64,000 nucleotides of DNA from Oceanococcus sp. HetDA_MAG_MS8 (GTDB taxonomy: Bacteria > Pseudomonadota > Gammaproteobacteria > Nevskiales > Oceanococcaceae), in assembly GCA_019192445.1 (NCBI GenBank), contig JAHCMK010000004.1, positions 124,001-188,000 of the forward strand, in the 5' to 3' direction. Position 1 is the first letter of the stretch, and each line of letters begins with the position of its first letter. The notes below the pieces were generated by a model. The model did not search any database, had not been told where the DNA came from, and worked only from the letters and a program-made list of their open reading frames with translations. Below are positions 1,373 through 20,440 of the stretch, one piece after another. The position numbers were made by a program, and so were the translations under genes.

Positions 1373-2734
1373 TTACTTCGATGCCTGCTTCTGAACAGTG
1401 TTTGGTTCAAAGTGGCGATCGGAGAAACTCACGGTCTGGTCGTAAGGCCGCCCTTCATTCTGCATGGCAGTCGCAAAGTAACGCCCGCTATTCAGGTGGT
1501 AGATGATTTCGGGCTGCGTGCTCGTGGCCTGGATATTGGTGTTGTCCATCAGATGTCCTTCCTGGAACTGCATCAGCTTGCCTTCGTGGTCGTAGGCGTC
1601 AATGGCGACGACATTCCAGGAATCTTCATCCAGGTAAATGGTTCGCTTGCTGAAGGTATGACGGTTATCCGGTTTGTTATTGGCTTCGACAACCCACACG
1701 CGACGCAACTCGTAACGCGGCAAATCCTGGTTCACATGATTCGGCGAGGCAATTTCGTCATAGGTCGTCGGCGGCGTGCCGATCTTGTAAGAGTTGGCCG
1801 GGATATACATTTCCCGCTTTCCAATCATCTTCCAGCTGAAACGCTCCAGGACGCCGTTGTACATGTCCACCTGGTCATAGAACTGGTGGCCGTCGGTGCC
1901 CTCGTAGGGGTTGTCACAACAGACCGCTGGGGCGCGACGAATCCGCTTCAGCGCCGGGGCATACAGCCAGGCCGAACGACCTTCCGGTCCGAATCCAGCT
2001 TTCTCGTGAACCAGAATAAAGGTTCCGGCGATGCGCGGCGGAGCAACGGTCTCCGACAGGTAACGCAGGAAATCCACACCCGGTTTCAGCTCGGGTGGGT
2101 TTTCCTCTTCAATATTTGCGTAGTAGAACTTTACGTCCTCGATGATCTTGGTCACCTTGAAGCTGCCGTCCTGCTGCACGATCATCTGGTCGTTTGGCCG
2201 GATCAGCGCATTACCACGCCATTTGGTCCGGTGATTCCAGATCGGCTCCGCGCCGGATTTCGGAATCGGGAACGGAAAACCCACGTAAGCCCCGCGTGGA
2301 TTGTCGACCCCTTCGAGCTCGGCACGCGTGGCGTTCTTGATAGTTTCATCAAGAATCTTCTGCGGAAAGTTGGTCTTGCGTACGGATGGATACACGTTCA
2401 TCTTGTAGCTGTCCGGAAACCGGCGCATCAACTCTTTGTGTCCCTCGGTCAACTTGGCCGCATAGTCATCGACGTTTTTGGCACTGATGGTGAATATGGG
2501 CTGCTGGGCTTCCAGCTCCGGGTCACCCGGAAATGCGTTGAGCTCTCCAGATTGTGGTGCCGGCGTCCACGCAGGGATCGTCCCCTCGGCATTCCCTGCA
2601 CGTTCCGCCCCCACGGGGGTCAGTTCGTTGCCCAGTTTCGCAGCCTCTTCTGCTGGTACTTTTCCAATACCGGCTTGCGGCAGCATCATGCCGGCCATCA
2701 AACCCATTGCAACAAGTAAACGTTCGGTATTCAT
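1373..2734 (-). CDS. DUF1329 family periplasmic protein
   Basis: The product has 453 residues counted from the ATG at 2734, preferred over the ATG at 2752 because GGGAG lies 6-10 nt before it. A signal peptide (MNTERLLVAMGLMAGMM..) is followed by the family pattern: an early ELTPVGAERAGN segment, then NVYPSVRKTNFP, an APALKRIRRAP segment, and a C-terminal YFATAMQNEGRPYD stretch. DUF1329 proteins resemble LolA/LolB-type lipoprotein-sorting folds and occur beside DUF1302 and RND genes. It lies between the RND gene (42 nt upstream) and the DUF1302 gene (23 nt downstream), so the three form one transcription unit. Carrying a hydrophobic ligand or envelope component through the periplasm is an inference. 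Confidence 0.85.
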   Translation of the reverse strand: MNTERLLVAMGLMAGMMLPQAGIGKVPAEEAAKLGNELTPVGAERAGNAEGTIPAWTPAPQSGELNAFPGDPELEAQQPIFTISAKNVDDYAAKLTEGHKELMRRFPDSYKMNVYPSVRKTNFPQKILDETIKNATRAELEGVDNPRGAYVGFPFPIPKSGAEPIWNHRTKWRGNALIRPNDQMIVQQDGSFKVTKIIEDVKFYYANIEEENPPELKPGVDFLRYLSETVAPPRIAGTFILVHEKAGFGPEGRSAWLYAPALKRIRRAPAVCCDNPYEGTDGHQFYDQVDMYNGVLERFSWKMIGKREMYIPANSYKIGTPPTTYDEIASPNHVNQDLPRYELRRVWVVEANNKPDNRHTFSKRTIYLDEDSWNVVAIDAYDHEGKLMQFQEGHLMDNTNIQATSTQPEIIYHLNSGRYFATAMQNEGRPYDQTVSFSDRHFEPNTVQKQASK

Positions 2735-2775
2735 GGATATCTCCCCTGTCATGAATAAAAATCAAATGCCGAGCT

Positions 2776-5370
2776 TCAGGCCGGGTTGGCCACTGGCTCG
2801 GGTTTCGAATCTGAAGGCCCCACTTTGAGCAGGAAGGCCGCGAAGGCCGGCAGCATCACTACTGCGGCAACAGCGTTGGCGATGAACATGATCGTGAGCA
2901 GAAAGCCCATATCCACCTGAAACTGCAGCGTTGAAAAAAACCAGGTGCACACGCTTGCAGCCAGCGTTGCGGCGGTAATCACCACGGCTTTGCCCGTCTG
3001 GTGCAAGGTTTCTTCATAGGCTTCGCGTAGTGCCTTGCCTTTGTTGCGCACCTCGTCCTCGAGCACGCTGAGGATGTAGATGCCGTAATCCACACCGATG
3101 CCTGCAGCAAATGCGGCCATCGCCAGATTGGACACCTTCACCCCGATCTGCAGGTACACCATCACCGCGTACGACACGACGGAAACCAGCCACAACGGGA
3201 CCAGAATGCAGATCAAGCTGGTAATGCTGCGAAAGGCAAGCAGGATGCACAGCCCAATACCGAGGAACAGCCAGGCCAGAACGGTCGGCTCGGTCTCGCG
3301 GATCACGTCATTGGCGGCGGCCATCACCCCGACATTGCCGGTAGCCAGCTGAAACTGAACCGGCGAATCCTCTGGCTGCTCGTCGATGAATTCATTGGCT
3401 GAGGCGACGATCATATCAATCGTCTCGGCCTTGTGATCCGATGAATAGACGAAAATCGGAATTGCGCTGCAATCCTCGTTCAGCAAACCGGTAGAGCTCG
3501 GGAACGGCTGGATAGTGACGACCAGAGCCCCGGACTCCCGCGGCAATACATGCCATTTCGGATTGTTCTCGTTGTAGGCGTTGTAGACCTGTTTGGAGGT
3601 CTTGGCCAGCGACATGGTCGACTGCACACCAGACACGTTTTCCATATGCCAGGCAAAGTCATCGATTGCATTCATGACCGTGTGATCGATACAGCCATCC
3701 GCCTTCGACTGGGCAATGATCTTTATGACATCGACGCCAATAGAGAAGTCTTCGGCAATCGTTCGCGAATCCACGTTGTAACGAGCGTCAGGGCGCAGTT
3801 CCGGAACGCCGTCGTGTAGCTCGCCGAACTTCAGATCCTGGGCAATGTGCTCTGCGCCTGCCCACAAGGCAACACCGCCAGCCAGCACCACAGCCGCAAC
3901 CGGCTTTTTGGTGATAACGGACAGCCCTCGCCACAGCGGACGCAGGCGTTGGTCGCGACGGTGCTGGTGATCACGAAACTTCTGCGGATTCTTGATAGGG
4001 GCGAAGGACAGCAGGCACGGCAGCAACACCTTTTTGCAGAGCACGATGGCGATCAGACCGAACATGGCGTTGATTGCCATCTCCTGCACGATGCCAATGG
4101 GAATCAGCAGAATCGTGCCGAAACCGACAAAGTTGGTAGCAAGCGCCGAAAGACCGGGAATCACCAGCCGGCGATAAGTTGCCCGTGATGCTTCAAAACT
4201 GTCGAGTCCAGAGTCGGCCACCTCATTCAACCAGAAATTTGTGATCTGGATTCCATGTGAGGTACTGATTGCCAACACGATGAACGGCATCAACACCGCA
4301 AATGGATCCAGCCCGAAGCCGAACAGGTGCAGCATGCCCAGCTCCCAGACCACCGCCAGCACACCGCAGGCCAGCGGCAGCAGCCCCACGCCGAGTGAGC
4401 CGCAGTACCAAGACAACAGCAACCAGACCAGGATCAGGGTGATCCCGAAAAAGCCGAAGACTTCCAGCGCGCTGTCGGCAATATCGCCGACCGCCTTGGC
4501 AAAACCGATAATGGCGATATCGATGTTCGGGTTGTAGTCCGGGTTGTCGCTCTCGCGCACCTCGAACTGCCGAGCCAATATTTCCAGCGGTTCAGCCCCC
4601 GGATCATCGAGTTCGTAGGTCACACTCTCGAAACGCAAGGTCAGTCCGCGTGGGTCCGTGTAATCAGTCCGGACAACCGCCCCTTGCTCCAGAGGCCCCA
4701 CCTTCTCGGTCAGAACATATTCATAGCGTGTTGGCGACAGGAAACGCTGACGAACCTGCTCAAGCCGATGCGCTGTCTCAATGTAGTCCAGCCGTTCCCC
4801 GGTGACGGGGTCGGTTTCAACGAGTTCGGAGAACACCATGGCTCCGGACTGGTCGTTCGACACCAGGCGACCGATCGCGTCAGAACGGGCAACATTCGAT
4901 TTCACCCGCGCCAGCATTTCCGGGCTGGGGGTGTAGTTGGATGGAACAACATTGCCGCCCTGAAAGCCGGATTCGACAACTTCCATGTAGCGCACATTAG
5001 GCGTGAACAGCGAACTTACCCGCGAGCGATCCACACCTGGCATGAAATAGATCGCCTTGGTGGCCTGCTCCAGAGTGGCCATGAACTCGGCTGAATATAT
5101 GGACTCATCGTTCTTCTGGCTGACCGCCAACAGCACCGTGTTGGCCCCGCCAAACTCCTTCTGGTAGTCCTGATAGACACCCATATACGGGTGCCCCAGC
5201 GGCAACTGCTTATCGAAGCCTGTGTCCATGCGAAGCTTCATGGCCTCCATGGCGAAAAAGGCCGTGATCACCCCAAGTACCAGAAGCGTCAACCACCGAC
5301 GACTGAATATAAGCGGTTCCGTATAGCGGACAAAAAGCTTGGCCGCCGTGCTGTTACTGTCTCCGTGCAC
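2776..5370 (-). CDS. RND/MMPL-family transporter
   Basis: This 864-residue inner-membrane protein starts at a GTG, with GGAG 6 nt upstream. It shows the RND/MMPL duplication. A first transmembrane helix (about residues 28-46) is followed by a large periplasmic loop to about residue 300, a cluster of about five helices to about 470, a second periplasmic loop (about 520-690), and a last helix cluster to about 850. Polar residues inside helices, such as GVDYGIY in the second bundle, fit proton relay positions. It lacks the length (about 1,030 aa) of AcrB-type pumps and is closer to the HpnN-like lipid/hydrophobe exporters. It heads the RND-DUF1329-DUF1302 set downstream of CYP153. Substrate is unknown; alkanes, their oxidation products or lipids are guesses from context. 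Confidence 0.88.
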   Translation of the reverse strand: MHGDSNSTAAKLFVRYTEPLIFSRRWLTLLVLGVITAFFAMEAMKLRMDTGFDKQLPLGHPYMGVYQDYQKEFGGANTVLLAVSQKNDESIYSAEFMATLEQATKAIYFMPGVDRSRVSSLFTPNVRYMEVVESGFQGGNVVPSNYTPSPEMLARVKSNVARSDAIGRLVSNDQSGAMVFSELVETDPVTGERLDYIETAHRLEQVRQRFLSPTRYEYVLTEKVGPLEQGAVVRTDYTDPRGLTLRFESVTYELDDPGAEPLEILARQFEVRESDNPDYNPNIDIAIIGFAKAVGDIADSALEVFGFFGITLILVWLLLSWYCGSLGVGLLPLACGVLAVVWELGMLHLFGFGLDPFAVLMPFIVLAISTSHGIQITNFWLNEVADSGLDSFEASRATYRRLVIPGLSALATNFVGFGTILLIPIGIVQEMAINAMFGLIAIVLCKKVLLPCLLSFAPIKNPQKFRDHQHRRDQRLRPLWRGLSVITKKPVAAVVLAGGVALWAGAEHIAQDLKFGELHDGVPELRPDARYNVDSRTIAEDFSIGVDVIKIIAQSKADGCIDHTVMNAIDDFAWHMENVSGVQSTMSLAKTSKQVYNAYNENNPKWHVLPRESGALVVTIQPFPSSTGLLNEDCSAIPIFVYSSDHKAETIDMIVASANEFIDEQPEDSPVQFQLATGNVGVMAAANDVIRETEPTVLAWLFLGIGLCILLAFRSITSLICILVPLWLVSVVSYAVMVYLQIGVKVSNLAMAAFAAGIGVDYGIYILSVLEDEVRNKGKALREAYEETLHQTGKAVVITAATLAASVCTWFFSTLQFQVDMGFLLTIMFIANAVAAVVMLPAFAAFLLKVGPSDSKPEPVANPA

Positions 5371-5511
5371 TTGTGTCTCCGGTGCGATTTTCTTCGGCTT
5401 ATTGGGTTGAGGCGAATGCGTTCATGCGGCTGGGAACCCAGCTCGGATACGTTTGCCGAGTGGCGACGCTCAATGTCTCTCTCCTCAATAGTCCATGATC
5501 ATTGGGCCCGC

Positions 5512-5539
5512 GAAAAGGAAGGGCCGCCCCTTCCTTTTC
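5512..5539 (-). terminator. Strong hairpin between CYP153 and RND genes
   Basis: Bases 5512-5523 and 5528-5539 form a perfect 12-bp inverted repeat with a 4-nt loop. It lies 54 nt downstream of the CYP153 stop. No T-run follows on the minus strand, so this is not a textbook intrinsic terminator. It could stabilise the 3' end of the ferredoxin-CYP153 message or partly separate it from the RND unit. Confidence 0.5.
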
Positions 5540-5592
5540 ATAGGTATTTCTATCTAACCGGTTGTTTGAAACCGGCGCAAGCAGCACCGGCT

Positions 5593-6972
5593 TCAAGATT
5601 TCGCCGTGAGCTTGACAAGCATCCGCGAGTAGCCGCGGACAAAGTTGGACTGCACCCGCTGAGGCTCCTCGATCACCTCGATTGCGTCAAAGCGTTGCAA
5701 CAGCTCTTCCCAGAGAATGCGCAGTTGCATCTCCGCCAGTCGGTTACCCATGCAGCGATGGACTCCGAAGCCGAAGGCAATATGATTACGGGCGTTCTTG
5801 CGGTCGATGATCAGCTTCTCAGCATCCTCAAAGACCGCTTCGTCTCGGTTGCCGGATGCATACCACATCACAACCTTGTCGCCCTTTTTGATGATCTGGC
5901 CGCCCAGTTCCACATCGGTCTTGGCAATCCGTCGCATGTAGGCCAGTGGCGTCTGCCAGCGAATGATTTCCGACACCATGTTCGGGATCAGTTCCGGGTT
6001 AGCCTTGAGCTTTTCGAACTGGTCCGGGTATTTGTTGAGGGCATATACCCCGCCCGTCATCGAATTTCGCGTCGTGTCGTTGCCACCGATGATCAGCAAT
6101 GCCAGATTGCCCAGAAACTCCATGGGATTTTTCACCATGTGCTTGGTTTCGTCTTTGGACAGAAGCAAGCTGATCAAATCGTAGGAAGGCGGAGCCCCTG
6201 CGTCGAGTCGTGTTTTCTTTTCCCAACACAAGCGTGAGAATGATTTGACGACCGAAGCGGCCGACTCAAAGAAGCTGTCGTGGTCACTTGGCCCACCCGT
6301 GGCTTCCGGGCTTGCAGCAAGCACGTCAGACCACCTCACAAGGTCGGCGCGTTGTTCATAGGGAAAATCAAACAACGTAGCCAGCATGCGGGCTGTCAGT
6401 TCGATGGAGACCCGGCTCACCCAGTCAAACGGCGTATCGAGCGGAAGATTGTCGAGGACATCAGCCACCCGTGATCGAATCAACCCCTCCATTTCGCGAA
6501 GGTTTTTGGGGGCGACCACACCCTGCACCGCCATGCGCTGCTCATCATGTCGCGGGGGGTCCATCGCGATGAACAATTCAGGGGCAATGCCCTGAATTTC
6601 ACCAATGAGGATCAGGGGTTCTGCCGAGAACAGCTCATGATGCTTGTCGACAAACTTGATGTCAGCATGCCGAGTCACTGACCAGAATGGGCCGAAGGGG
6701 GAACTCTTGGCGAAGTGAACAGGACATTCCTCGCGCAGTCGTTTGAAATAGGTATCCGCCTTGTCCTGACGAAAAAGGAAAGGATTGCTCACATCGATCG
6801 CGTCGATATTCAGACCATTCACATCCGGCAGGTCTGTTTCGATAAAAACCGGAGGCGCTTTAATCAGACCCAGTTTTGTCCGAGCCTTTTGCAGTGTATG
6901 CAGTCCTTTTATCTGCAGATCTGCGGGCACGATGGTAGACGCAGCCTGCATTGCCTTGGCTTGAATACTCAT
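5593..6972 (-). CDS. cyp153A: CYP153A-type cytochrome P450 alkane hydroxylase
   Basis: This 459-residue P450 hydroxylates the terminal carbon of medium-chain alkanes using electrons from a 2Fe-2S ferredoxin. The match to CYP153A proteins I remember (for example from Marinobacter) is very close along the whole length: DVSNPFLFRQ, FGPFWSVTR, MDPPRHD, the I-helix GGNDTTRNSM, the E..R pair in SEIIRWQTPLAYMRRIAK, and the haem loop FGFGVHRCMG with the cysteine ligand. I chose the ATG at 6972 over 6993 because GGAG lies about 10 nt before it. It follows the ferredoxin gene by about 50 nt and probably shares its promoter. No ferredoxin reductase, alcohol or aldehyde dehydrogenase is in the visible part of the locus. 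Confidence 0.95.
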   Translation of the reverse strand: MSIQAKAMQAASTIVPADLQIKGLHTLQKARTKLGLIKAPPVFIETDLPDVNGLNIDAIDVSNPFLFRQDKADTYFKRLREECPVHFAKSSPFGPFWSVTRHADIKFVDKHHELFSAEPLILIGEIQGIAPELFIAMDPPRHDEQRMAVQGVVAPKNLREMEGLIRSRVADVLDNLPLDTPFDWVSRVSIELTARMLATLFDFPYEQRADLVRWSDVLAASPEATGGPSDHDSFFESAASVVKSFSRLCWEKKTRLDAGAPPSYDLISLLLSKDETKHMVKNPMEFLGNLALLIIGGNDTTRNSMTGGVYALNKYPDQFEKLKANPELIPNMVSEIIRWQTPLAYMRRIAKTDVELGGQIIKKGDKVVMWYASGNRDEAVFEDAEKLIIDRKNARNHIAFGFGVHRCMGNRLAEMQLRILWEELLQRFDAIEVIEEPQRVQSNFVRGYSRMLVKLTAKS

Positions 6973-7023
6973 TTTTGTCTCTCTCCATGACACCTGTCAG
7001 GGCGCAGACGTATGCTGCGACGT

Positions 7024-7344
7024 TTACATTTGAAATTCCGGCATCCGGACAACTAGGCCGTCCAGGTCATCGCTCATCACGATCTGGCATGACAGCCGGG
7101 ACGTCGGTGTCCGTTCGGGCGTCATGCTCAGAATCTGATTCTCGTCATCGGAAGGCGTGCCGGTTTTGCCCGACCAGGCCTCATCCACCTGTACATGGCA
7201 TGTACCGCAAGCACATTCCCCACCGCAGTCAGCATCAATTCCGGGCACCATTCTGTCGATGGCGACCTGCATCAACGGCTGTCCATTCTCGGCTTCAACC
7301 TGATGCTCCGTTCCGTCAAACTCGATAAATGTGACTGTCCCCAC
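7024..7344 (-). CDS. Adrenodoxin-type [2Fe-2S] ferredoxin, partner of CYP153
   Basis: This small electron carrier has 106 residues from a GTG at 7344. The GTG is preceded by GAGGAG with 6 nt spacing and gives the normal family length; an ATG at 7371 would add nine unneeded residues. The cluster ligands follow C-x5-C-x2-C (in DCGGECACGTC) with the last cysteine in RLSCQIV. It is the first gene of the unit ferredoxin-CYP153 and reads away from the AraC gene. In CYP153 systems this protein passes electrons from an FAD reductase to the P450; the reductase must be encoded elsewhere or outside the window. Confidence 0.93.
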   Translation of the reverse strand: MGTVTFIEFDGTEHQVEAENGQPLMQVAIDRMVPGIDADCGGECACGTCHVQVDEAWSGKTGTPSDDENQILSMTPERTPTSRLSCQIVMSDDLDGLVVRMPEFQM

Positions 7345-7440
7345 CGATCGCTCCTCATTTACTGAAATCACCGGGAGAATCCGCTAGCTCCAGCAGCCCC
7401 CAATTGGTGGATTATCCGGAATCACGGATTAGTTGAATTG

Positions 7441-7474
7441 TCTTTTTTCGCCATATAATTATCTTTTTACGCCA
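7441..7474. promoter_or_regulatory. Two 13-bp direct repeats in the cyp153 / araC divergent promoter
   Basis: TCTTTTTTCGCCA at 7441-7453 and TCTTTTTACGCCA at 7462-7474 differ at one base, with start points 21 bp apart (two helical turns). They lie about 97 bp before the ferredoxin start and 57 bp before the AraC-type gene. Direct repeats at this spacing are how AraC-family dimers usually bind. Assignment to the adjacent regulator is inference. Confidence 0.6.
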
Positions 7475-7530
7475 CACACCCGGCCGAAGACCGAGAGGCA
7501 TATGCATTTCAATCTGGCCCCCTTCACGCC

Positions 7531-8559
7531 ATGAAAACCCAGGACCCCGGCGTTCCTGCTCGCTACTATCTGCGCATGCTGGAATACCTCGAGCTGCAGG
7601 ACATCCCGCTGCGTAGGGTTCTGAAGCATTCGGGCATCAATCCTCAAGGACTCCAGGCACCCGATGCACACCTGCGTTTGAGCCAAATCGAATCGCTCGT
7701 CAATGTCCTTTTCGACGACTTATCGATCAGTAACGACATTGCCCTGGACTGGGGGGCGCTGCTTGGTGTGTCCACCCACAGCATTGTTGGCTTCGGCATG
7801 CTGAACAGTCCGAATATCGAGCACAGCCTGCAGTTTGTTGCACGGTTTTTCCGTCTGGTGATGCCAACCTTTTCCATGCGCTACGTTCGGCACAACGGCG
7901 GGGCCACCATCACCTGGCGTCCTATCGTTGGAATGAGTCCTCGCTGTCTGGACTTCCACATTGAGAGTATCGCCAACGCGGCCTACCGTGAGATTCGTGA
8001 ACTGGCTCCAGGCTTGCCGATCTTTCGAGTGGACCTGTCCATCAAGGAGCCGGCGCACAAGGCCCGCTACCGAAAACTGACCGGGGCAAGCTGGCGTTTT
8101 GCTTGCCTAGAACGACCAGGCGCCATGATTCACTTCGACTTCGATGCGTCGATGTATCCCTTGAATACTGCCGATACCAATGCCTTCCGCGTTGCAGAGG
8201 AAAGATGTCGAGCCCTGCAACAGAGCGTTGCGGTAAAAGGTGCCTTCAAGAGCTGGGTGAGAATGATGTTGAGGGATGCAGGAAACGGCCAGCCCGACCT
8301 GAAGGATCTGGCCGGCGTATTGAATATTTCTACCCGAACCCTCAACCGGCACCTGCAGAATGAGGGCACCACTTTTCGTGAGATCGCTGGTCAGGTTCAG
8401 CACGAACTCGCCTGCAAGCGCCTGTGTGACCCGCATCTCAGCGTAACGGAGATTGCCTTGTCATTGGGCTTTACCGAAACAGCGAATTTCTCCCGCTTTT
8501 TCAAATCCAAGCAAGGCGTGAGCCCGCGTGCTTTTCGAAACCAGCAGCTTCGAGGCTAA
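7531..8559 (+). CDS. AraC-family regulator of the CYP153 locus
   Basis: The 342-residue protein has an arabinose-binding-type sensor domain (about residues 15-210) and a C-terminal double helix-turn-helix (about 240-335). The latter contains the LNISTRTLNRHLQNEG recognition segment and the family signature IALSLGFTETANFSRFFKSK. It is divergent from the ferredoxin/CYP153 genes with a 186-bp gap holding two direct repeats. AraC regulators next to CYP153 genes commonly activate them in response to alkanes or oxidation products. The inducer here is not known. Confidence 0.88.
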   Translation: MKTQDPGVPARYYLRMLEYLELQDIPLRRVLKHSGINPQGLQAPDAHLRLSQIESLVNVLFDDLSISNDIALDWGALLGVSTHSIVGFGMLNSPNIEHSLQFVARFFRLVMPTFSMRYVRHNGGATITWRPIVGMSPRCLDFHIESIANAAYREIRELAPGLPIFRVDLSIKEPAHKARYRKLTGASWRFACLERPGAMIHFDFDASMYPLNTADTNAFRVAEERCRALQQSVAVKGAFKSWVRMMLRDAGNGQPDLKDLAGVLNISTRTLNRHLQNEGTTFREIAGQVQHELACKRLCDPHLSVTEIALSLGFTETANFSRFFKSKQGVSPRAFRNQQLRG

Positions 8560-10669: not shown

Positions 10670-11866
10670 TCATGGTGACGCCCGTGCAGGAGGCCCGGTG
10701 GAGCGATCCGGCAGCAGGATCTGCACGATGCCCATGGGCTTGCCGCAGTGCGGGTACGCAAAGGGGCTTTGCACCGGGCCGTGCGTGTTGATTTTCGGCT
10801 CGTCCGTATGGGGAGGGGCTTCGGGGGCTTGGACGCCAAGGCACTGCCGAGCTGTCTCGATGTGTTTCCGTCGGTCGGCATTGGCCAGCAGGCCGTAGTG
10901 CCGAATGCGATGGAAACCCTTGGGCAAGACATGCAGCAGAAAGCGCCGCATAAACTCTTCCGGGGCCAGTGTCATGGTCTTGTGCCGGGTGCGTCCTTTG
11001 GCGCGGTAGTCTTTCCAGCGGAAGGTCACGCCCTCGGCATGGATGGCTTTCAGCCGGCTGTTGGCAATGGCGACCCGGTGGGTGTATCGAGACAGATAGG
11101 CCAGCACTGCCTCCGGCCCGGCAAAGGGCTTCTTGGTATAGACCACCCATTCGCTTCGACGAAACGGGCGGAGCCATTCCCGGAAAGTGTCCGCATCCGC
11201 CAGCGATCGGTGCTCGCCAAAGAAATGCAGCCGTCGCTCGGCATGGGCAGCGGTGAGTCCGTCCAGGAAGAGCCGGCGAAACAGTCGGGATAGCACCCGG
11301 ACCGGGAGGAAGAAACCCGGTCGGCATCCGATCCACTGCGTTCCGTCTCGGGATAATCCACCGCCCGGCACAATGCCGTGCACATGGGGATGATGGGTCA
11401 TGGCGGATCCCCAGGTGTGCAGCACCAGCGTGGCCCCGATCCGGGCCCCGAGATGCTTCGGGTCGGCGGCAATCGTCCGCAAGGTTTCCGCGGTGGCCTG
11501 AAACAGCAAGCCGTACACCACGTCCTTGTTGGCATACGCGATGTCGCTGATCGCCGCGGGTAACGTAAAGACCACGTGGTAGTAGGCCACCGGCAGCAGA
11601 TCCGCTTGCCGGAGTTCCAGCCAGCGTTTCGCAGCACTGCCCTGGCATTTGGGGCAATGCCGGTTGCGGCAGGAGTTATAGGCGATGTCATCGCCGCCAC
11701 AGCTTTCGCAATGCAGCACATGCCCGCCCAGGGCGGCACTGCGGCATTGCTCGACCGCCGACATGACCTTGAGCTGACCGAGACTCAGGTGCCTGGCCTG
11801 CTGTTGGCGCCATCCGGCGCCGTAGCGGTGAAAGACATCGGCGACCTCCAGAGAAGGGCGCCCCAT
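10670..11866 (-). CDS. IS91-family HUH transposase
   Basis: This 398-residue rolling-circle transposase starts with an N-terminal zinc-binding region: CESCGG, then NSCRNRHCPKCQ at about residues 54-75. The HUH metal site is MTHHPHVHG at about residue 157. The catalytic tyrosine lies in AYLSRYTHRVAIANSRL at about residue 240. The length is normal for the family and the frame is intact. It follows the integrase gene by only 3 nt and is probably translated from the same message. It should nick one strand at the element origin and move it by single-strand replication. Confidence 0.92.
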   Translation of the reverse strand: MGRPSLEVADVFHRYGAGWRQQQARHLSLGQLKVMSAVEQCRSAALGGHVLHCESCGGDDIAYNSCRNRHCPKCQGSAAKRWLELRQADLLPVAYYHVVFTLPAAISDIAYANKDVVYGLLFQATAETLRTIAADPKHLGARIGATLVLHTWGSAMTHHPHVHGIVPGGGLSRDGTQWIGCRPGFFLPVRVLSRLFRRLFLDGLTAAHAERRLHFFGEHRSLADADTFREWLRPFRRSEWVVYTKKPFAGPEAVLAYLSRYTHRVAIANSRLKAIHAEGVTFRWKDYRAKGRTRHKTMTLAPEEFMRRFLLHVLPKGFHRIRHYGLLANADRRKHIETARQCLGVQAPEAPPHTDEPKINTHGPVQSPFAYPHCGKPMGIVQILLPDRSTGPPARASP

Positions 11867-11869
11867 GAC

Positions 11870-12748
11870 TCACGCCGGCGGGGCCACATCCTCCAGCGGG
11901 CTGATCACCTCGCGCAGGGCTTCGGTGGCGACCTGGGCGTACAGCGCTGTGGTGTCCAGTTTCTTGTGACCGAGCAGCACCTGTATCCGTCGGATATCCA
12001 CCTTCCGCTCCAGCAGGTGGGTAGCGAAGCTGTGCCGCAGGGTGTGCATCGAGATCGACTTTTTGATGCCGGCTTCATCGGCGGCTTGCTGAATGATGCG
12101 GCTCAGTTGCCGCGTGGTCAGCGGGTTGATCGGATTTATCCCGGGAAACAGCCATCCGTGATCGAGCATCTTTCCCTGGCGCCGGGCGATCCGCCACCAC
12201 GACCGCAGCAGCTCCAGCATCACCGGCGAGAGCATCGCGTAGCGATCCTTCATGCCCTTGCCTTGATCCACCCGCAGCGTCATCCGCTCGCTGTCGATGT
12301 CATCGACCCGCAGGTGCACCACCTCGCTGGCCCGCAGGCCGGCACCGTACGCCACCGACAACGCCGCGCGGTGTTTCGGATGCAGAGCACCCCGGAGCAA
12401 ACGACCCACTTCCTCCATGCTGAGCACCACCGGCATCCGCCGCGGCACGCGCACCGAGCTCATCTTCTTCATCACTTCCGGCTTGTCGACGGTGTGATCG
12501 AAGAAGAACTTCAGGCCCGTGATCGTGACATTGATGGTGGTGCCGGTCGTACCGGTTTCGACCAGATGGAGCTGGAAGGCCCGCAGCTCCTCGGCGGTCG
12601 CCGTATCCGGTGAGCGTTTCAAGTACGCCGTCAGCTTCTTCACGGCGCGGATGTATTGAATCTGCGTCTTATCGCCCAGCTTGCGCATCCGCATGTCTTC
12701 AATCATGCGTTGACGCAACGGGCTTACGGCTTCGGGGGATGCGTTCAT
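11870..12748 (-). CDS. Tyrosine recombinase paired with IS91-type transposase
   Basis: A 292-residue phage-integrase-family protein, counted from ATG 12748 (GGAG about 8 nt upstream; the ATG at 12808 has none). An N-terminal SAM-like core-binding domain (RMIEDMRMRKLGDKTQIQYI..) precedes the catalytic domain. The conserved residues are R in GAGLRASEVVHLR, HxLR in MHTLRHSFATHLLE, H in LLGHKKLDTT and the nucleophile Tyr in ALYAQV. Some IS91-family elements carry such a recombinase directly upstream of the transposase, as here. It may resolve circular or dimer intermediates; that role is inferred. Confidence 0.92.
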   Translation of the reverse strand: MNASPEAVSPLRQRMIEDMRMRKLGDKTQIQYIRAVKKLTAYLKRSPDTATAEELRAFQLHLVETGTTGTTINVTITGLKFFFDHTVDKPEVMKKMSSVRVPRRMPVVLSMEEVGRLLRGALHPKHRAALSVAYGAGLRASEVVHLRVDDIDSERMTLRVDQGKGMKDRYAMLSPVMLELLRSWWRIARRQGKMLDHGWLFPGINPINPLTTRQLSRIIQQAADEAGIKKSISMHTLRHSFATHLLERKVDIRRIQVLLGHKKLDTTALYAQVATEALREVISPLEDVAPPA

Positions 12749-12902
12749 CGTGAGTCTCCATGTCCGAGGCACATGCCTCAAGGCACAGACCTCAAACAGA
12801 GACCACACGCATCACGCCAACACCAACCTCAGCCGAAGGCACCCCTACCGCGCGAGCGGTTTAGTCCATAGGCACGGAGCGGAAGTCCGTACTTTGCAAC
12901 CG

Positions 12903-13192: not shown

Positions 13193-13918
13193 TTAGAACG
13201 GCTTCTTAAGCCACTCAGCTTCCGCGGTTTTTATCGCCCCTTCCCATGCGTTGAAGTTGGCCGAGATGCTACTGGGATGTATTGGCTGACCATTGGCCAT
13301 CACCTCCTGCATCAAATATGCAGTCACTAGTGAGATTTGGCTGATTCGCTCTTGCCTTGAAAGATCAGGGGCCCACTCCGTCGCATGATGGTGAGCGAGA
13401 TTAATTGCCGTTGCAATAAACCTGATCAGGTTCGACTTGTCATTCCCCTTGACCTTACCCAGCCTGTTCCGAAACGTGTGAGTCACGAACCCTAGGTTCC
13501 CCAAAGCATGCATATTTTCGTTTGGATGCCAGTTAAACCATTTCCGAACCAAGCCATCAGGGCGGATTTCGAGGGCAACGCATACCTCAATGACAAATTC
13601 TAAAGGTGGGTATCGCCTGCCCGCCTCGTAGTCGAGCAAGGTGTTTTTACTCACCCCAACCTTCTTTGCAAGTTCCCGAATGGATGTCGTTTTCATCCCA
13701 ATTTTCTTTGCTCTGCGGGCCTGAAATTTTGGGTCATCGATTTTTTCAATCAGTCGCTGGTAACGCTTTTCGGTATCCGAATAGGGCAACGACTCACTCA
13801 ATTTCAAATTGAGTTGCCGGTCAGCTTTTTCTGTGCGCGCCAGGTACTCGTACTCCTCTGGCCCCCTGGCTCTCCTCAATGCGTCCCCAAACCTGACTGA
13901 TCCGCGATATCTTTTCAT
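13193..13918 (-). CDS. XRE-type helix-turn-helix regulator of the transposon
   Basis: This 241-residue cytoplasmic protein has a central HTH of the Cro/C1 type at about residues 88-140: TSIRELAKKVGVSKNTLLDY, then EAGRRYPPLEFVIEVCVALE. The N-terminal 75 residues are charged and helical. The C-terminal 100 residues form no domain I recognise and may dimerise or sense a signal. It is divergent from tnsA with a 144-bp gap carrying an inverted repeat. Transcriptional repression of the tns operon is the simplest role but is inferred. Base composition is more AT-rich than in the chromosomal genes, as in the tns genes. Confidence 0.8.
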   Translation of the reverse strand: MKRYRGSVRFGDALRRARGPEEYEYLARTEKADRQLNLKLSESLPYSDTEKRYQRLIEKIDDPKFQARRAKKIGMKTTSIRELAKKVGVSKNTLLDYEAGRRYPPLEFVIEVCVALEIRPDGLVRKWFNWHPNENMHALGNLGFVTHTFRNRLGKVKGNDKSNLIRFIATAINLAHHHATEWAPDLSRQERISQISLVTAYLMQEVMANGQPIHPSSISANFNAWEGAIKTAEAEWLKKPF

Positions 13919-14062: not shown

Positions 14063-14872
14063 GTGCAAATCCAACCCACCAGATTGACGCGTGTTCTACA
14101 CGCCCCGCCCCAGCTCCCAAGCAACCCGAAGCTTGCCGCACGGCTTCGAAATCAGATCAATGACGTGTTCGCGAAGCCAAAGGACGACGCAGGGATTCTG
14201 TACGGCGTTCGCAAGTTTCGAGGCGGTCGGCCACACGCAAAGACGGTCCTTGTTCCATCCCGGAAAAACGGCGGCCTAATTCCTTGCGAGGCGGGCCTCG
14301 AACCTGAACTAGCCAAAGCTCTGGAAATTGATCCTGATGTGAAAGGGTTTCGAAGTCAGGCCCTCGGCCTCATGGGTCCGAAAGGACGAGAACTGGTTAT
14401 CGACTTCGTAGCGGTGCGAACGACGGGCGAATTCCTCGTGATAGACGTCAAACCACATGGGCGCCTCTCGGCCCCTGATGTGATTGATCGAATGCGTTTT
14501 GTCCGTGAAACGCTGTCATCTGCGGGACTCCCTCACCGGATTGTGACCGAAAGACAACTGGAAGAGTGGCCAAAAAAACAAATCCGGGACTCTCTCCGAA
14601 AAGGCATCACAACGGTGATTCCCAACAGCGAATCCAGGCATCTAACGGAATTCATCAGGTCAGCGCCCTGCGATGTTGGATCGGCCCGCCTGTTCGCCAT
14701 TAACTGTGGCATCGACCCTTTTTCCATCGAGCAGATGGTGATTCAAAACCAATTGCGCTTCTCGATCAACCACGAGTGGAGCGCCTACACAAAACTGGAG
14801 ATTAACCATGGAACCAATCAAGAACCTGGCTCAAATTGGGGCACGATTCGAGATTTACGAATCAGCATTTGA
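14063..14872 (+). CDS. tnsA: TnsA-like transposon endonuclease
   Basis: The product has 269 residues from a GTG preceded by AAGGAGG with 6-nt spacing. It looks like the restriction-endonuclease-fold TnsA that cuts the 5' ends of Tn7-type elements: CEAGLEPELAKALEIDP supplies the Glu, LVIDFVAV the Asp, and FLVIDVKPHG the D/E-x-K catalytic lysine (about residues 77, 117 and 132). The C-terminal half is a winged-helix-like region as in TnsA. Its last 65 bp overlap the start of tnsB, so the two are translationally coupled. With TnsB it should give cut-and-paste transposition rather than copy-in. Confidence 0.88.
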   Translation: MQIQPTRLTRVLHAPPQLPSNPKLAARLRNQINDVFAKPKDDAGILYGVRKFRGGRPHAKTVLVPSRKNGGLIPCEAGLEPELAKALEIDPDVKGFRSQALGLMGPKGRELVIDFVAVRTTGEFLVIDVKPHGRLSAPDVIDRMRFVRETLSSAGLPHRIVTERQLEEWPKKQIRDSLRKGITTVIPNSESRHLTEFIRSAPCDVGSARLFAINCGIDPFSIEQMVIQNQLRFSINHEWSAYTKLEINHGTNQEPGSNWGTIRDLRISI

Positions 14873-16160
14873 AGTCGCCTCTTTCAATGAAAGTGGGCTT
14901 CGCGCTGCAGCAGTGCTTGGAGGCGATACACGTCACTACAAGTGGGCAGCTGTCAAAAAGCTGCTGAGCGACGGGCACCTGAACATCACATACGTTCCTC
15001 GAGAACTGGCCGCACTGGATGAAGAATGCACACGTGCGTTGACATCTAAACAACTGGTCAGTCGCAACCGTCGGAAACACTACGTCGAATCGATTGTTCG
15101 CCTAGAACCCGACAGGTGCTGCTCGAAAAAGGTTATCGCCGAGCTCATTCCATCGATCGCTCAGCAGATCAGCGACACCAAGCCGCCGAGCCCATCTTCT
15201 CTTGCGGAGTGGGTGAAGAAATGGCGGGACGCCGGTGGCAACTGTGCTGCGTTGACAGACAAGCCAAAACCGAGCCGAGCTGAATTTCGCGATGTCTCCC
15301 CCGAAGTCTTAGAGATCGTTCGTAACGCAATCAATACGGACTATTTGACGACTCAGCGGAAACCAAAGAAAGCGGTCTTCGTGGAAGTCATGCGTCAAGT
15401 AGCCAACTTAAACGCGAGCACCTCAAAGCCCCTGGATGTGCCATCTGAGTACATCGTCAACAAACTGATCAACAAGATCGACCTGTACGAGCGTGATCGC
15501 AAACGATTTGGGACCGCGAGAGCGAACAGACTCCACAAGGCTGCAGGGCGTGCCTTTGTTGCATCCGAGCCGCTGGAAACATGCATGGCCGATGGTCAGC
15601 TCATGGATGTGATTCTTATCGACAGCCCAATGGACGGAAGTCCGCCAAATTATTTGGGCCGCCCGTATCTGACTGCAGTTATTGATGTCCGGACCCGCTG
15701 CATTCTTGCCGCCTTCATTAGTTTGCAGCCTTTCAGCGGCGGAACACTATTGAAGGCGATGCAGATGGCCATGGTCGCTTCACCGGGGCGCCCCAGGGGA
15801 ATCATGCAGAAACTGATCGTAGACAACGGTTGCGATTACACGGACTCGGGATTCATCAGGTTCATGGACGACCAATTTGTCACCGTCGAACACTGCAAAC
15901 CAAATGATCCCAACAAGAAGGGGATAGTTGAGCGCTGGTTCCGCACCCTTAACGACCGACTCATCCACCAGCTACCCGGAACGACCTTCTCGAACCCGGC
16001 AGATCGAGGTGACTATCGCTCCCAGGAATTCGCAACCATCACGCTCGCCGAACTGCAGGAGAAGGTTCAGAACTGGATCGATAACAAGTATCACCAGAAC
16101 CGCCATGACTCCCTGGGCCGCGCTCCTATCGACGTGTGGAATGAGGAGACAATTTCGTGA
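14808..16160 (+). CDS. tnsB: TnsB-like transposase, N-terminal and DDE catalytic part
   Basis: The 450-residue protein starts at an ATG after GGAG. Helical DNA-binding domains occupy residues 1 to about 250. The RNase-H-fold DDE core follows, with D262 (in MADGQLMDVILID), D339 (VDNGCDYTD) and E375 (GIVERWFRTLN). It stops just after the core, at RAPIDVWNEE, where the beta-barrel (Mu-transposase C) domain should begin. That domain is encoded by the next gene in the -1 frame. The two together give 690 residues, the length of a one-piece Tn7 TnsB. Stop and next start overlap as GTGA. Confidence 0.9.
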   Translation: MEPIKNLAQIGARFEIYESAFEVASFNESGLRAAAVLGGDTRHYKWAAVKKLLSDGHLNITYVPRELAALDEECTRALTSKQLVSRNRRKHYVESIVRLEPDRCCSKKVIAELIPSIAQQISDTKPPSPSSLAEWVKKWRDAGGNCAALTDKPKPSRAEFRDVSPEVLEIVRNAINTDYLTTQRKPKKAVFVEVMRQVANLNASTSKPLDVPSEYIVNKLINKIDLYERDRKRFGTARANRLHKAAGRAFVASEPLETCMADGQLMDVILIDSPMDGSPPNYLGRPYLTAVIDVRTRCILAAFISLQPFSGGTLLKAMQMAMVASPGRPRGIMQKLIVDNGCDYTDSGFIRFMDDQFVTVEHCKPNDPNKKGIVERWFRTLNDRLIHQLPGTTFSNPADRGDYRSQEFATITLAELQEKVQNWIDNKYHQNRHDSLGRAPIDVWNEETIS

Positions 16161-16879
16161 GAATCCCCATTCGAACACTGTCGGCTGAAGACGCCGAGGT
16201 CACAGCACGAACGACCGTCAGCCGCATCGTTACAAATGGCCGTGTCGAGTGTCATGGCTTGCATTGGTATTCACATGCCCTGAGGTCCTGGGAGCAGAAG
16301 CAAAAGGAATCCAGACGGTCACGTCGCGTCGAACTGCGAGTTGATGAGCTCAACCTTGGCATCGTCTATGTTGATGTGCCCGATCGAGGCTATGGCCCAA
16401 TAAAGGCCAATTCGACTCAACCTGAGTTCACCGAAAATCTCTCGCTGTACGAGCTCAACAAGCTAAAAGCCGAACTGAAAAAGAAGCACATCGCCAGTCG
16501 AATTGGACGACTGGCCGACACTGACGCTCTGGCACTTCGCATAGAGCATTTTGAGGCACTGGATCACAAAAACGATCCTGTCGCGTTTCGCCGTTTTTCC
16601 GAAAACAGAGCCCAAATGCGCGACCAGCGAATGAAGCTCAACGAGAAGAAGAAGCGGACCGGGCCAGCTGAGGACACAACACTCAAACATCCGCCAGAAA
16701 GCACTAAACCGGAGGCACCGAAAAGTGGCCCTCCCGATCCAACAACCACAAGGGCAAACCCCAAAAGTTCTACACCGGTGACGCCGCCGGGCTCCTTTGA
16801 GAAGGAAAAACCCAGCGCAACGCACTGCACTCAACCGAGAAAGATGAAATCTAGCCAGATCAAAAGGAAAGCAATGTGA
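16157..16879 (+). CDS. TnsB C-terminal domain encoded as a separate gene
   Basis: The 240-residue protein begins at a GTG overlapping the stop of the DDE gene. AGGAG lies 8 nt before the GTG, so this is a genuine start. Residues 1-75 match the beta-barrel after the DDE core in TnsB/TniA/MuA: IPIRTLSAEDAEV leads to the typical GRVECHGLHWYS and NLGIVYVDVPD segments. A helical stretch follows (about 95-165), and then a Lys/Pro/Thr-rich disordered tail ending in basic residues. In Tn7 the TnsB C-terminal tail contacts TnsC, so this protein may bridge catalytic TnsB and the ATPase. The frame is open upstream only from 16145, so a simple recent frameshift has a 15-nt window at most. Confidence 0.85.
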   Translation: MRIPIRTLSAEDAEVTARTTVSRIVTNGRVECHGLHWYSHALRSWEQKQKESRRSRRVELRVDELNLGIVYVDVPDRGYGPIKANSTQPEFTENLSLYELNKLKAELKKKHIASRIGRLADTDALALRIEHFEALDHKNDPVAFRRFSENRAQMRDQRMKLNEKKKRTGPAEDTTLKHPPESTKPEAPKSGPPDPTTTRANPKSSTPVTPPGSFEKEKPSATHCTQPRKMKSSQIKRKAM

Positions 16880-17964
16880 GCACCCAAGCCAAAACTGAAT
16901 CCGAATACCGCCGTTTTCTTGCTCCGGATTCGAAATGCCTCAATGACGACGAACGCAAGATCGTTCGGTCCATCAGCGAGGAAGTCCTCTACACCCATCA
17001 GATAGAAGCAACGTTGCAGTTCATCGACGAAATCGTCGATAAAAACGCTTCTCAGTCAGAACCCCGCAGTGGGATCGTCGTAGGCGATGCGGGCACTGGA
17101 AAAACAACGACAATCGAGATTCTCAAAGGCCGATTTCCCGAAATCACCGATGAATTCCATTTCGGCCACCAACGCCGACAGCCACTCTTGGCAGTCAGCC
17201 TTCCGGCAAACATCACGCAAAAAAGTATGGCTCAGACCTTACTCCAGACTCTGGGGCATTACGCGAATCTGAGTGGGAACACCAAGCAGTTGACAGACCG
17301 TCTGTGCGAAACCATTAAAGCTTGCGAAGTTGAGACGATCATCATTGATGAGCTTCAACACTTGCGCGGCCTGGGTAATGTGTCGCGGAATAGTGCTAGC
17401 GCAAGCCTCAGGGCGGCTAGAAACTGGATCAAGGATTTGGTTAACCGACTTCCACACTTGTCGGTGATTCTCATGGGTGTGCCCGAAACCTTGATGCTAA
17501 TTGATGGCGAAAGCCAACTCGAACGAAGGTTTACGAAAGTCCATGAGATCAAGCCATTTGCACCGCCGCAGACCGGTTGCACTGAATTCGCAAGTTTCGT
17601 TGATTGCCTTGTCGATGCGGTGATTCAACATTCCGGCGTCATCAAAAGCGCCGAGCAGATTTACGACAACCCTAACTGGGCAGCTCGGTTTTTCGGCACG
17701 ACCGTAGGTAATCCGAGCAGGACCAAGGATGCAGTCACGGATGCCGCTCTTTATGCATATCGAGATGGCCGAGACCACATCTTGCTGACCGACTTTCATG
17801 CTGCGTTTGCCATACGACGCCAATCTCGAACTCGGCTGGAGGAGATCCAACGACGCCGCGAAGAATCAGACGCCGTCCTGCGGTCGGTGAACAATGGTGA
17901 TGTCGATCCATTCACAGCAACCGATGATGCCGTGAACAACCTCATCATGCCGCTGGCTGCTTAA
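16876..17964 (+). CDS. tnsC: TnsC/TniB-type AAA+ ATPase
   Basis: This 362-residue transposition regulator has Walker A GDAGTGKT at residues 70-77 and Walker B TIIIDELQHL near 155. A sensor-1 segment, LSVILMGVPE, is followed by the arginine-rich ERRFTKVHEI. TnsC links the target selector TnsD to the TnsA/TnsB transposase and confers target immunity. The start GTG overlaps the preceding stop as GTGA. The C-terminus (about 300-362) is charged and would contact TnsA/TnsB in Tn7. The gene is intact. Confidence 0.93.
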   Translation: MSTQAKTESEYRRFLAPDSKCLNDDERKIVRSISEEVLYTHQIEATLQFIDEIVDKNASQSEPRSGIVVGDAGTGKTTTIEILKGRFPEITDEFHFGHQRRQPLLAVSLPANITQKSMAQTLLQTLGHYANLSGNTKQLTDRLCETIKACEVETIIIDELQHLRGLGNVSRNSASASLRAARNWIKDLVNRLPHLSVILMGVPETLMLIDGESQLERRFTKVHEIKPFAPPQTGCTEFASFVDCLVDAVIQHSGVIKSAEQIYDNPNWAARFFGTTVGNPSRTKDAVTDAALYAYRDGRDHILLTDFHAAFAIRRQSRTRLEEIQRRREESDAVLRSVNNGDVDPFTATDDAVNNLIMPLAA

Positions 17965-17966
17965 AA

Positions 17967-20048
17967 ATGCCCCAGCCGCTGCCATTTGTTCCGAAGCTGC
18001 AACCAGGTGAATCGCCTCTGAGCCTATTTAGGCGAGCATGTATGGGTAACTTCTATGGTTCCCTGACGCAGTTGGCTTTCGCCGTGAATCCGGATATCGA
18101 ACATTCAGCATCGGCCCTGCCGGCTATGGCTCGCAATCCCAACAAATTGAGGAAGTCGCTCGCCGCAATGGGCATCGATGATGCGAGCATCACGCAAGTG
18201 GAGTACGCCAGAACTGGACGGGGTCGCAGTGACGACATCATTTGGAATGGATTGGCCGTTCGGCTCGGCGATCTGCAATTGTCGCACCCGAAGTTCTGCG
18301 CGCGATGCCTGATGGACAAGGGCTACGCGGCGTCTGTCTGGGATCACGTGGCCTCTGTGGCCTGCGCCGAGCACCGAGTACTTCTTGTCGACAGCTGCCC
18401 ATGTTGTGGCGCGAACTGGCCTGTTCAAAGTGCTCGATTCGAATGCGGCTGCAATCTGTCAGAAATGGCCGACGCACAGAAGCAGTGTTCGGATGCAGCG
18501 GCTCGCCTGTTGCCGAAGATTGTTTCCGCTCAGGACCAATCAGGCATCGAGCGACTCACCGAACTGCGTCGCCTGACACGCTACTGGAAAGCGCTCGGCA
18601 TCGAATTCTCCGATGAGGTCCTGGCAGAGTTGTACCCTGTTTTATTTGATGGCAATTGGCCGGATGCCCTGCCAACCTGTTCATCTAGTCAGGCTGTTCA
18701 TCCGCGAATCCTTCTCATGCCCTTGCTTGCAAGCGGCTCGCCGCAGACACGTGATCTGGCAAAAAATCTGCTCCATCAATATGCAAAGCCACTCCACGCA
18801 AGGAATCTCGGATTCACATCGCTCGGAGCCGCTGAGACCGCGGCAGTCCTCGGAATCGGATTGTCATGCCTGAAGTCGTTGGTTAAGGCTAATCAGTTGG
18901 CACACCTCGCCGATGGGCGATACTCCGCATCCGAAGTAAACGCTCTCTTGATCGGACTTCGCGGACATCCCTTGCCGGATGGGGACGGATTGCCGCTGCG
19001 CCTCATTCGGACAGGAAAGTACAAGCGTTCGCTCAGCTGGATACTTGATCGAATCAAATCGAACGAGATCTCTGCATACAACTGCCCTGATGTCGGCGGG
19101 CTCGGCCAGATCGTCGTGGATAAAGCAGAAGTTGCTCCTCGCCACAAATGCGAAATACCCGACGCATATGACCTCGCTTATGCAGCAGATCAGCTCGGGA
19201 CGAATACCGAATCGGTTAGGAAACTCTTAAAAATTGGCTTGTTACCCGCACATCGCGGATCAAGTTCAAGTGCGGTGCAGTGGCGAATCAGTGCAAGTGA
19301 ATTGAACAAGTTCGAGGAACGGTACGAATTTGGATCTTCCTACGCCAAGCGGTGCGGGGTTCCGACCCGATCTGCCATCTACAAACTTCGGGCACGCAAC
19401 ATCCAACCAGTCAGTGGGCCGGGAGTCGACGGCGGGGCGACTTACCTTTTCCGAAGAAGTCAGCTTGCCGGAATCGACATCAACGATCCGTCGACCGTGA
19501 CGTATCCGGACGCGAACATACGGGGACCGCATACTCGTTTCACCAGCAAAATTGCTATGTGGTCGAGCAAGCAAGTAGCGACTGAACTCGGCTTGTCGCC
19601 GCGATACATCCGCGAACTGGTCAAGCAGGAATGGCTAGTTGTAGCGTCTGTTTTCGGCAGGCGTTGGATGTTCAGATCAGAGGATGTCCAAAATTTGCGT
19701 CGGCGAATCGCTGAAGAGTTCGTTGAAGTCAGTAAGGCCTCGCAGAGGTTCAAACAATCCCCGCGTCAGTTTCAACGCACCTGGTTAGACACAAAGCAAA
19801 TTCCAGTCAGGCTGTTCGCAAACAAGCGCTTGATCAGTAAGACTTCGATCGAAGCAGCGCTGGCAATTTGGCAGAACTCCGGCAGTGCGTCATCCATCGG
19901 CAACAAAATTGATCGAGGGCGCTGGCTCTGCCCGAACCTCACCAAGATGTCCAAGCTGGAATCGTGCACTCAAATGGGCACCAAAGATCTTTTCGTGAAG
20001 CTCTATCCGCGCAATGCGGAAGCATACCCACACTACGAAAAGTTCTGA
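17967..20048 (+). CDS. tnsD: TnsD/TniQ-family target-selection protein
   Basis: The 693-residue product begins 2 nt after tnsC. The TniQ domain (about 1-170) starts with LPFVPKLQPGESPLSLFRRA. Its zinc-finger cysteines include FCARC, ACAEH, CPCCG and CGC. The long C-terminal part holds repeated winged/excisionase-like HTH units: LGAAETAAVLGIGLSCLKSL (about 290), DLAYAADQLGTNTESVRKLL (about 400), SYAKRCGVPTRSAIYKL (about 460) and SSKQVATELGLSPRYIREL (about 535). That size and a DNA-reading tail mark a TnsD that recognises one specific chromosomal site, unlike short TniQ proteins. Which site is unknown. Confidence 0.9.
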   Translation: MPQPLPFVPKLQPGESPLSLFRRACMGNFYGSLTQLAFAVNPDIEHSASALPAMARNPNKLRKSLAAMGIDDASITQVEYARTGRGRSDDIIWNGLAVRLGDLQLSHPKFCARCLMDKGYAASVWDHVASVACAEHRVLLVDSCPCCGANWPVQSARFECGCNLSEMADAQKQCSDAAARLLPKIVSAQDQSGIERLTELRRLTRYWKALGIEFSDEVLAELYPVLFDGNWPDALPTCSSSQAVHPRILLMPLLASGSPQTRDLAKNLLHQYAKPLHARNLGFTSLGAAETAAVLGIGLSCLKSLVKANQLAHLADGRYSASEVNALLIGLRGHPLPDGDGLPLRLIRTGKYKRSLSWILDRIKSNEISAYNCPDVGGLGQIVVDKAEVAPRHKCEIPDAYDLAYAADQLGTNTESVRKLLKIGLLPAHRGSSSSAVQWRISASELNKFEERYEFGSSYAKRCGVPTRSAIYKLRARNIQPVSGPGVDGGATYLFRRSQLAGIDINDPSTVTYPDANIRGPHTRFTSKIAMWSSKQVATELGLSPRYIRELVKQEWLVVASVFGRRWMFRSEDVQNLRRRIAEEFVEVSKASQRFKQSPRQFQRTWLDTKQIPVRLFANKRLISKTSIEAALAIWQNSGSASSIGNKIDRGRWLCPNLTKMSKLESCTQMGTKDLFVKLYPRNAEAYPHYEKF

Positions 20049-20193: not shown

Positions 20194-20311
20194 GCAAATC
20201 CAGTCATAGCTGCCAATAGCCTTTTCGGCGAATCCAGACGTAGCAGACTGACCCCAGCGTGTTGCAAATCCGACCATAGCCGCTCTATTCTCAGGCGAAT
20301 CCGGGCGTAGC
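20194..20311 (+). repeat. Four 17-bp direct repeats, candidate TnsB-binding sites
   Basis: Copies of GCRAATCCRGNCRTAGC lie at 20194-20210, 20228-20244, 20264-20280 and 20295-20311, with start-to-start distances of 34, 36 and 31 bp (about three helical turns). One exception to the consensus is GA for RG in copy three. They sit between tnsD and the candidate right terminus. Multiple oriented repeats inside an end are the normal form of TnsB sites in Tn7-like elements. Confidence 0.6.
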
Positions 20312-20440
20312 TGCGCTATGAGTCCGAAACCTGATGTTGCACAAATTCATAAGTCACTGATTTTTAAACCACGCCGATCCAGCTAGAATGCAATGCCTAC
20401 GCTTTGCCCTTTGCAACACAGGGCCAAGTTTGGGGGTACA

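Follow-up and report, generated by a model that had tools for sequence, protein, structure and literature searches.

A clade-wide two-gene TnsB in a Tn7-like transposon family that appears to home to the 3' end of nrdB

Tn7 inserts at glmS, with its tnsA side adjoining the target gene. Tn7 and Tn7-like elements combine the gene order tnsA-tnsB-tnsC-tniQ with several TnsB-type sites at both ends, a 5-bp duplication and insertion at a fixed position behind a conserved gene, and their TnsB is usually, though not by definition, one polypeptide. To our knowledge, the type V-K CAST element ShCAST has no TnsA. Its TnsB (7svw, 8aa5, 8ea3) is one chain, as is MuA of phage Mu. Tn6022-type elements encode TnsA, TnsB, TnsC and TniQ, and insert in comM with TnsF (PMC10293859). 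The element described here lies largely within a window of 64,000 nt (the whole stretch of DNA analysed) from Oceanococcus sp. HetDA_MAG_MS8. It shares with the Tn7 group the gene order, with a tnsA-like gene in first place, the TnsB-type sites at both ends and, probably, the 5-bp duplication and the fixed site after a conserved gene. However, its TnsB is encoded by two genes, whose products together follow the domain order of ShCAST TnsB, the second one also matching the barrel of MuA. Unlike Tn7, it is found at nrdB, and the cargo side of the window element (window 1-20401 plus C4:119167-124000) adjoins the target gene; unlike Tn6022-type elements, it follows nrdB and not comM, and carries a 693-residue TniQ with HTH stretches.

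Table 1. Features of the element and its insertion site; positions are those of the window unless contig C4 of the same genome (G000) is named.
Feature	Position	Strand	Remarks
nrdB	G000:C4:117939-119156 (L064:1939-3156)		before the window; NrdB model 1.7e-208
left duplication copy	C4:119162-119166		CTTTC; 4 of 5 match to right CTTTG
left end	G000:C4:119221-119311	inverted	three sites, at 119221, 119250 and 119295
tnsA-like endonuclease gene	14063..14872	+	269 aa; 3' end overlaps tnsB-N by 65 nt
tnsB-N	14808..16160	+	450 aa; DNA-binding domains and DDE catalytic domain; ORF, PDB profile match
ribosome-binding-like GAGGAG	16143..16148	+	8 nt before the GTG; inside codons of conserved ..VWNEE..
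tnsB-C	16157..16879	+	240 aa; beta-barrel (IIbeta/MD), helices (IIIalpha/OD), disordered linker, short basic C-terminal motif
tnsC-like AAA+ ATPase gene	16876..17964	+	362 aa; Pfam TniB 1.7e-21, AAA_22; GTG overlaps tnsB-C TGA
tniQ/tnsD-like target selector gene	17967..20048	+	693 aa; TniQ domain, several HTH_17/MerR-like stretches
right transposon end	20194..20311	+	four direct TnsB-type sites GCRAATCCRGNCRTAGC, at 20194, 20228, 20264 and 20295
probable right tip	20395..20406	+	last element base 20401, then 5-nt CTTTG at 20402-20406

As listed in Table 1, the tnsA-like gene, tnsB-N, tnsB-C, tnsC and tniQ form an operon-like run. The GTG of tnsB-C overlaps the TGA of tnsB-N by 4 nt (GTGA), placing tnsB-C in the -1 frame, and AGGAG is found at 16144-16148, 8 nt 5' of this GTG. 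The nearest upstream stop in the tnsB-C frame limits the stretch over which both frames are open to 16 nt. Between that stop and the conserved N-terminus of tnsB-C, no canonical start other than the GTG occurs. Since tnsB-C and tnsC also overlap as GTGA, the joint inside tnsB resembles the other operon joints. The initial annotation had given the coordinates, frames and sizes of the two parts and a combined length of 690 aa, all borne out by the sequence and the ORF check; the ribosome site that it assigned to the second part is supported by the ribosome-binding-like sequence. The tnsA-like gene scores 33 bits against NCBIfam TnsA-like (3.2e-08), compared with a family cut-off of 110 bits, and its position before tnsB fits. 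The tniQ gene matches Pfam TniQ (1.8e-07) and HTH_17 (5.9e-19, 3 stretches); the TniB and TniQ matches are both above the Pfam cut-offs, giving the combination of TnsC with TniQ/TnsD by which Tn7-like elements are recognised.

For both TnsB parts, the matches to PDB profiles and folds are firmer than those to Pfam, where tnsB-N (rve_3/rve) and tnsB-C (Mu-transpos_C, 0.0012) stay below the cut-offs. Aligned with its relatives (A4), tnsB-N gives a profile that hits solved TnsB proteins over their N-terminal and catalytic regions, namely those of Tn6677 (5.5e-44), PseTnsAB (2.5e-35), ShCAST (2.5e-17) and Tn7 (1.6e-08). In the same alignment, D262, D339 and E375 of tnsB-N occupy the positions of the DDE triad, which is intact, and tnsB-N can be regarded as a DDE transposase related to TnsB. 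The tail profile (A3) matches residues 671-762 of PseTnsAB (5.1e-05), whose catalytic match ends at 652. AlphaFold models were modest, with a mean pLDDT of 64 and 58, the catalytic part being of low confidence. The tail model (64, with about 70-90 in the barrel) folds into a barrel (about 18-92) and helices (97-167) before a disordered end, and matches TnsB of ShCAST, the Tn7 transpososome, Tn7 TnsB and MuA (Foldseek/VIA). It superimposes on ShTnsB 410-524 with a Z of 8.3 over 101 residues (3.0 A), and its barrel on MuA 480-560 (1bcm) with a Z of 6.7 over 71 residues (3.3 A). Based on these profile and fold matches, the cut is therefore placed between IIalpha (catalytic RNase H, DDE) and IIbeta (barrel, MD). 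It follows that tnsB-C holds the barrel and the TnsC-contacting tail, in agreement with the initial annotation, and in addition the helical oligomerisation region. Most split tails, like the one-piece sister, keep a basic motif (such as IKRKPK) at the C-terminus.

Relatives were sought by profile in the same order. Among 85 genomes, a split tail occurs in five, the window included, and a one-piece relative in one (G021). The four other carriers are the cultured isolate Stagnimonas aquatica (L002/L027), G062 (L021), G077 (L022) and a Gammaproteobacteria MAG (L023/L025, one genome reached twice); all have the split at the same residue, with a catalytic gene that is 45-53% identical. Their start/stop overlaps are ATGA (twice), GTGA and ATGCTGA, i.e. 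4 or 7 nt, a GAGG-type sequence precedes the tail start in 4/5 loci (window, L021, L022 and L025), and the dual open frame of L025 likewise measures 16 nt. In L025 (8093-8280), about 187 nt separate the tail gene from tnsC, which overlap in the others. A contig search with a two-row alignment gave three loci, and one with a single protein as query gave no match. In the sampled genomes of the class (369) and phylum (398), all other matches at the thresholds used read on in one frame beyond the catalytic domain, by about 110 residues or more. The tail has no relative in the plasmid collection. TnsB-N does have plasmid-borne relatives, at about 25-32% identity, and both of those inspected over their full length (L016, L018) are one-piece; viral contigs yielded a single weak match only.

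The nearest relative outside the clade is Thiocapsa roseopersicina, with a one-piece TnsB (42% in the catalytic part) that aligns across the joint without loss: ...LWAEAVAN is directly followed by KPVRTVFEDEAE, versus VWNEE.., a stop and then MxxPIRTL..DAE in the split proteins. Next, a tree of 24 TnsB rows was inspected. The five split rows lie on one side of a branch with a support of 92/89 (90% of the bootstrap trees), none of 500 label shuffles scored as low as the split grouping, and Thiocapsa is placed next to them with 100/99. This is good, though short of decisive, support for a single clade, and one origin appears the simplest reading of the split. Probably, it arose once, through a small indel that brought a TGA into overlap with a start codon within the linker between IIalpha and IIbeta. 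At codon positions 1/2/3, differences amount to 0.36/0.29/0.57 for tnsB-N and 0.42/0.35/0.63 for tnsB-C, the third position being the most divergent in both; as the pairs are only 40-60% identical, synonymous sites are saturated.

To the initial annotation, the split had looked evolved and not like a sequencing slip, and it had suggested counting neighbours with the same layout. All relatives inside the clade (4/4) share the two-gene layout, so the contrary outcome it had named, a one-piece TnsB in every close relative, did not occur. Four other assemblies are split at the same residue, each with a start codon that overlaps the stop, which excludes an indel artefact. Decay or mis-sequencing of a one-piece tnsB in the window copy is extremely improbable: the branch of the window row is somewhat longer, at 0.66, than those of neighbouring rows (0.33-0.46), but the split recurs in five assemblies, one of them from the isolate Stagnimonas aquatica, and the operon, the DDE residues and the element ends are intact. 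The two-gene TnsB is an evolved trait that at least five lineages have inherited. Transposases made by frameshifting are common among insertion sequences, such as IS3-type elements, and the second frame is -1 in 5/5 split loci, as would be expected if programmed recoding at the overlap produced some full-length TnsB, the separate tail being a by-product or second product. However, none of the five junctions has an X XXY YYZ heptamer, the frames are jointly open over the short stretch given above in both the window and L025, and each tail begins at a start codon of its own, placed across the stop and generally preceded by the GAGG-type sequence. A canonical -1 frameshift thus seems unlikely, and recoding of any kind improbable. 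Given the 16-nt dual frame and the missing slippery heptamer in 5/5, the most likely outcome is a pair of separate, coupled proteins.

The reading favoured here, to which we give a probability of roughly 0.75, is that of a complete Tn7-like transposon homing to the nrdB 3' end, whose TnsB consists of two translationally coupled proteins that reassemble. TnsB-N would bind the ends and carry the DDE active site, while TnsB-C would provide the beta-barrel, the helices for oligomerisation and, at its C-terminus, the contact with TnsC. On finishing tnsB-N, ribosomes may begin again at the GTG/ATG that overlaps its stop and so make similar amounts of both chains, which would re-associate through the contacts that join these domains in one-piece TnsB to form one transpososome. 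Recruitment of TnsC, and perhaps its disassembly and target immunity, would require this two-chain complex. Two protomers of the ShCAST strand-transfer complex use their middle and oligomerisation domains in trans, on the catalytic protomers (PMC9527255), which makes the supply of these domains by a separate chain plausible. Deleting the TnsB C-terminal domain or hook of ShCAST abolishes transposition, and isolated C-terminal fragments bind TnsC without disassembling it (PMC9371665). From these fragment and in-trans data we infer that TnsB-N reassembles with TnsB-C, and that the control of TnsC requires the two to be joined.

More tentatively, the catalytic half and the half for assembly and ATPase contact might be present in unequal numbers or be joined conditionally, in which case assembly of the halves would control transposition and target immunity. 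The initial annotation had likewise suggested that separating the tail could alter stoichiometry or regulation. A somewhat less probable reading is that both pieces cooperate in unequal amounts, with tail-less catalytic subunits as a normal part of the transpososome. It is in line with the ShCAST structure, where the OD and CTD of the catalytic protomers are unseen and the other two protomers give the OD in trans (PMC9527255), and with the tail-tnsC gap of 187 nt in L025, where expression may differ; the tight start/stop overlap, on the other hand, suggests coupling near one to one. It is quite doubtful that the tail acts on TnsC apart from TnsB-N, e.g. by inhibiting or activating TnsC assembly as a free protein, even if slightly less so than recoding. 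The split does put the end that contacts TnsC on a separate protein able to diffuse, and the C-terminal hook of ShCAST alone binds TnsC filaments (PMC9371665), but tnsB-C keeps the barrel and helices that assemble with the catalytic domain in one-piece TnsB. Moreover, C-terminal fragments of ShCAST alone leave TnsC assembled, and truncated TnsB gives no transposition (PMC9371665); by these truncation results, TnsB-N without the tail should be inactive.

With a two-chain TnsB, catalysis, end pairing and TnsC control become separately variable. Which parts of TnsB or MuA are needed on the active-site chain has so far been approached with engineered fragments; here, the cut is natural and retained, so the domain requirements of the subunits become a directly testable natural case. 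A two-chain TnsB would reveal whether every transpososome subunit needs the tail, and could provide insertion tools of the Tn7-like type with a two-part switch. The initial annotation had considered the layout possibly undescribed; in line with this, the open-access literature searched holds no description of a split TnsB (TnsB1/TnsB2 included), an absence that is weak evidence. On the sequences at hand, the clade-wide two-gene TnsB in an apparently nrdB-homing Tn7-like family is considered real.

The repeated sites at the two ends, 25 kb apart and present in the same pattern in relatives, are putative TnsB binding sites. No left end was found inside the window; the inverted set on C4 places it about 4.8 kb before the window, directly after nrdB. 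A joint search for a tip plus 5-bp duplication identified the tip CGTA(G/A)GG, common to the window element, G004 and G077, with the duplications CTTTC/CTTTG, CAAAT/CAAAT and TCGGA/TCGGA, respectively. Each single call is within chance, whereas 0/200 shuffles gave a tip common to all three, making a 5-bp target duplication of the window element probable. Under this tip call, the element spans C4:119167-144401 (25,235 bp, ending at window 20401), consistent with a complete Tn7-like transposon of 25.2 kb.

The window element is inserted 10 nt past the nrdB stop codon, which ends at C4:119156. Upstream of the split tnsB and on the same strand, nrdB is also present in G004, 18 kb away, and in G077, about 50 kb away, with inverted sites directly after its stop; in G056, nrdB and tnsB are on different contigs. 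The nrdB 3' end thus looks like the homing site of the split-TnsB element family. The one-piece relative of G021 is situated 53 kb downstream of nrdB (L079, G021:C37), and the sequence downstream of this nrdB contains GAAACGTAGCGCG plus repeats of its own. As this one-piece relative also follows nrdB, homing to nrdB may predate the split, which is suggestive only. In L079, CGTAGCGCG comes after the nrdB stop, and the short repeats there belong to a different set (CATAATTA-type). Directly after the Thiocapsa nrdB stop, no end is visible, so its one-piece element is probably located elsewhere. No RNA attachment site was detected in the window by tRNA and Rfam scans. With no nrdB-homing Tn7-like element described in the open-access literature searched, nrdB appears to be a new target for the Tn7-like group.

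Besides the transposition genes, the element carries a cytochrome P450 gene (window 5593-6993), which we take to be CYP153-like by motif, and a CypR/AraC-like regulator gene (7531-8559). Other cargo (window 1373-8559 and L064:3854-8485) encodes an MMPL transporter, DUF1329, DUF1302 and YCF48-like proteins, and the cargo resembles a gene cluster for hydrocarbon oxidation and transport. An IS91-family transposase gene (3.9e-127) with an adjacent tyrosine recombinase gene lies at 10670-12808, inside the element and upstream of tnsA. Divergent from the tns operon, an HTH regulator gene is located on the - strand at 13193-13918, a possible regulator of transposition.
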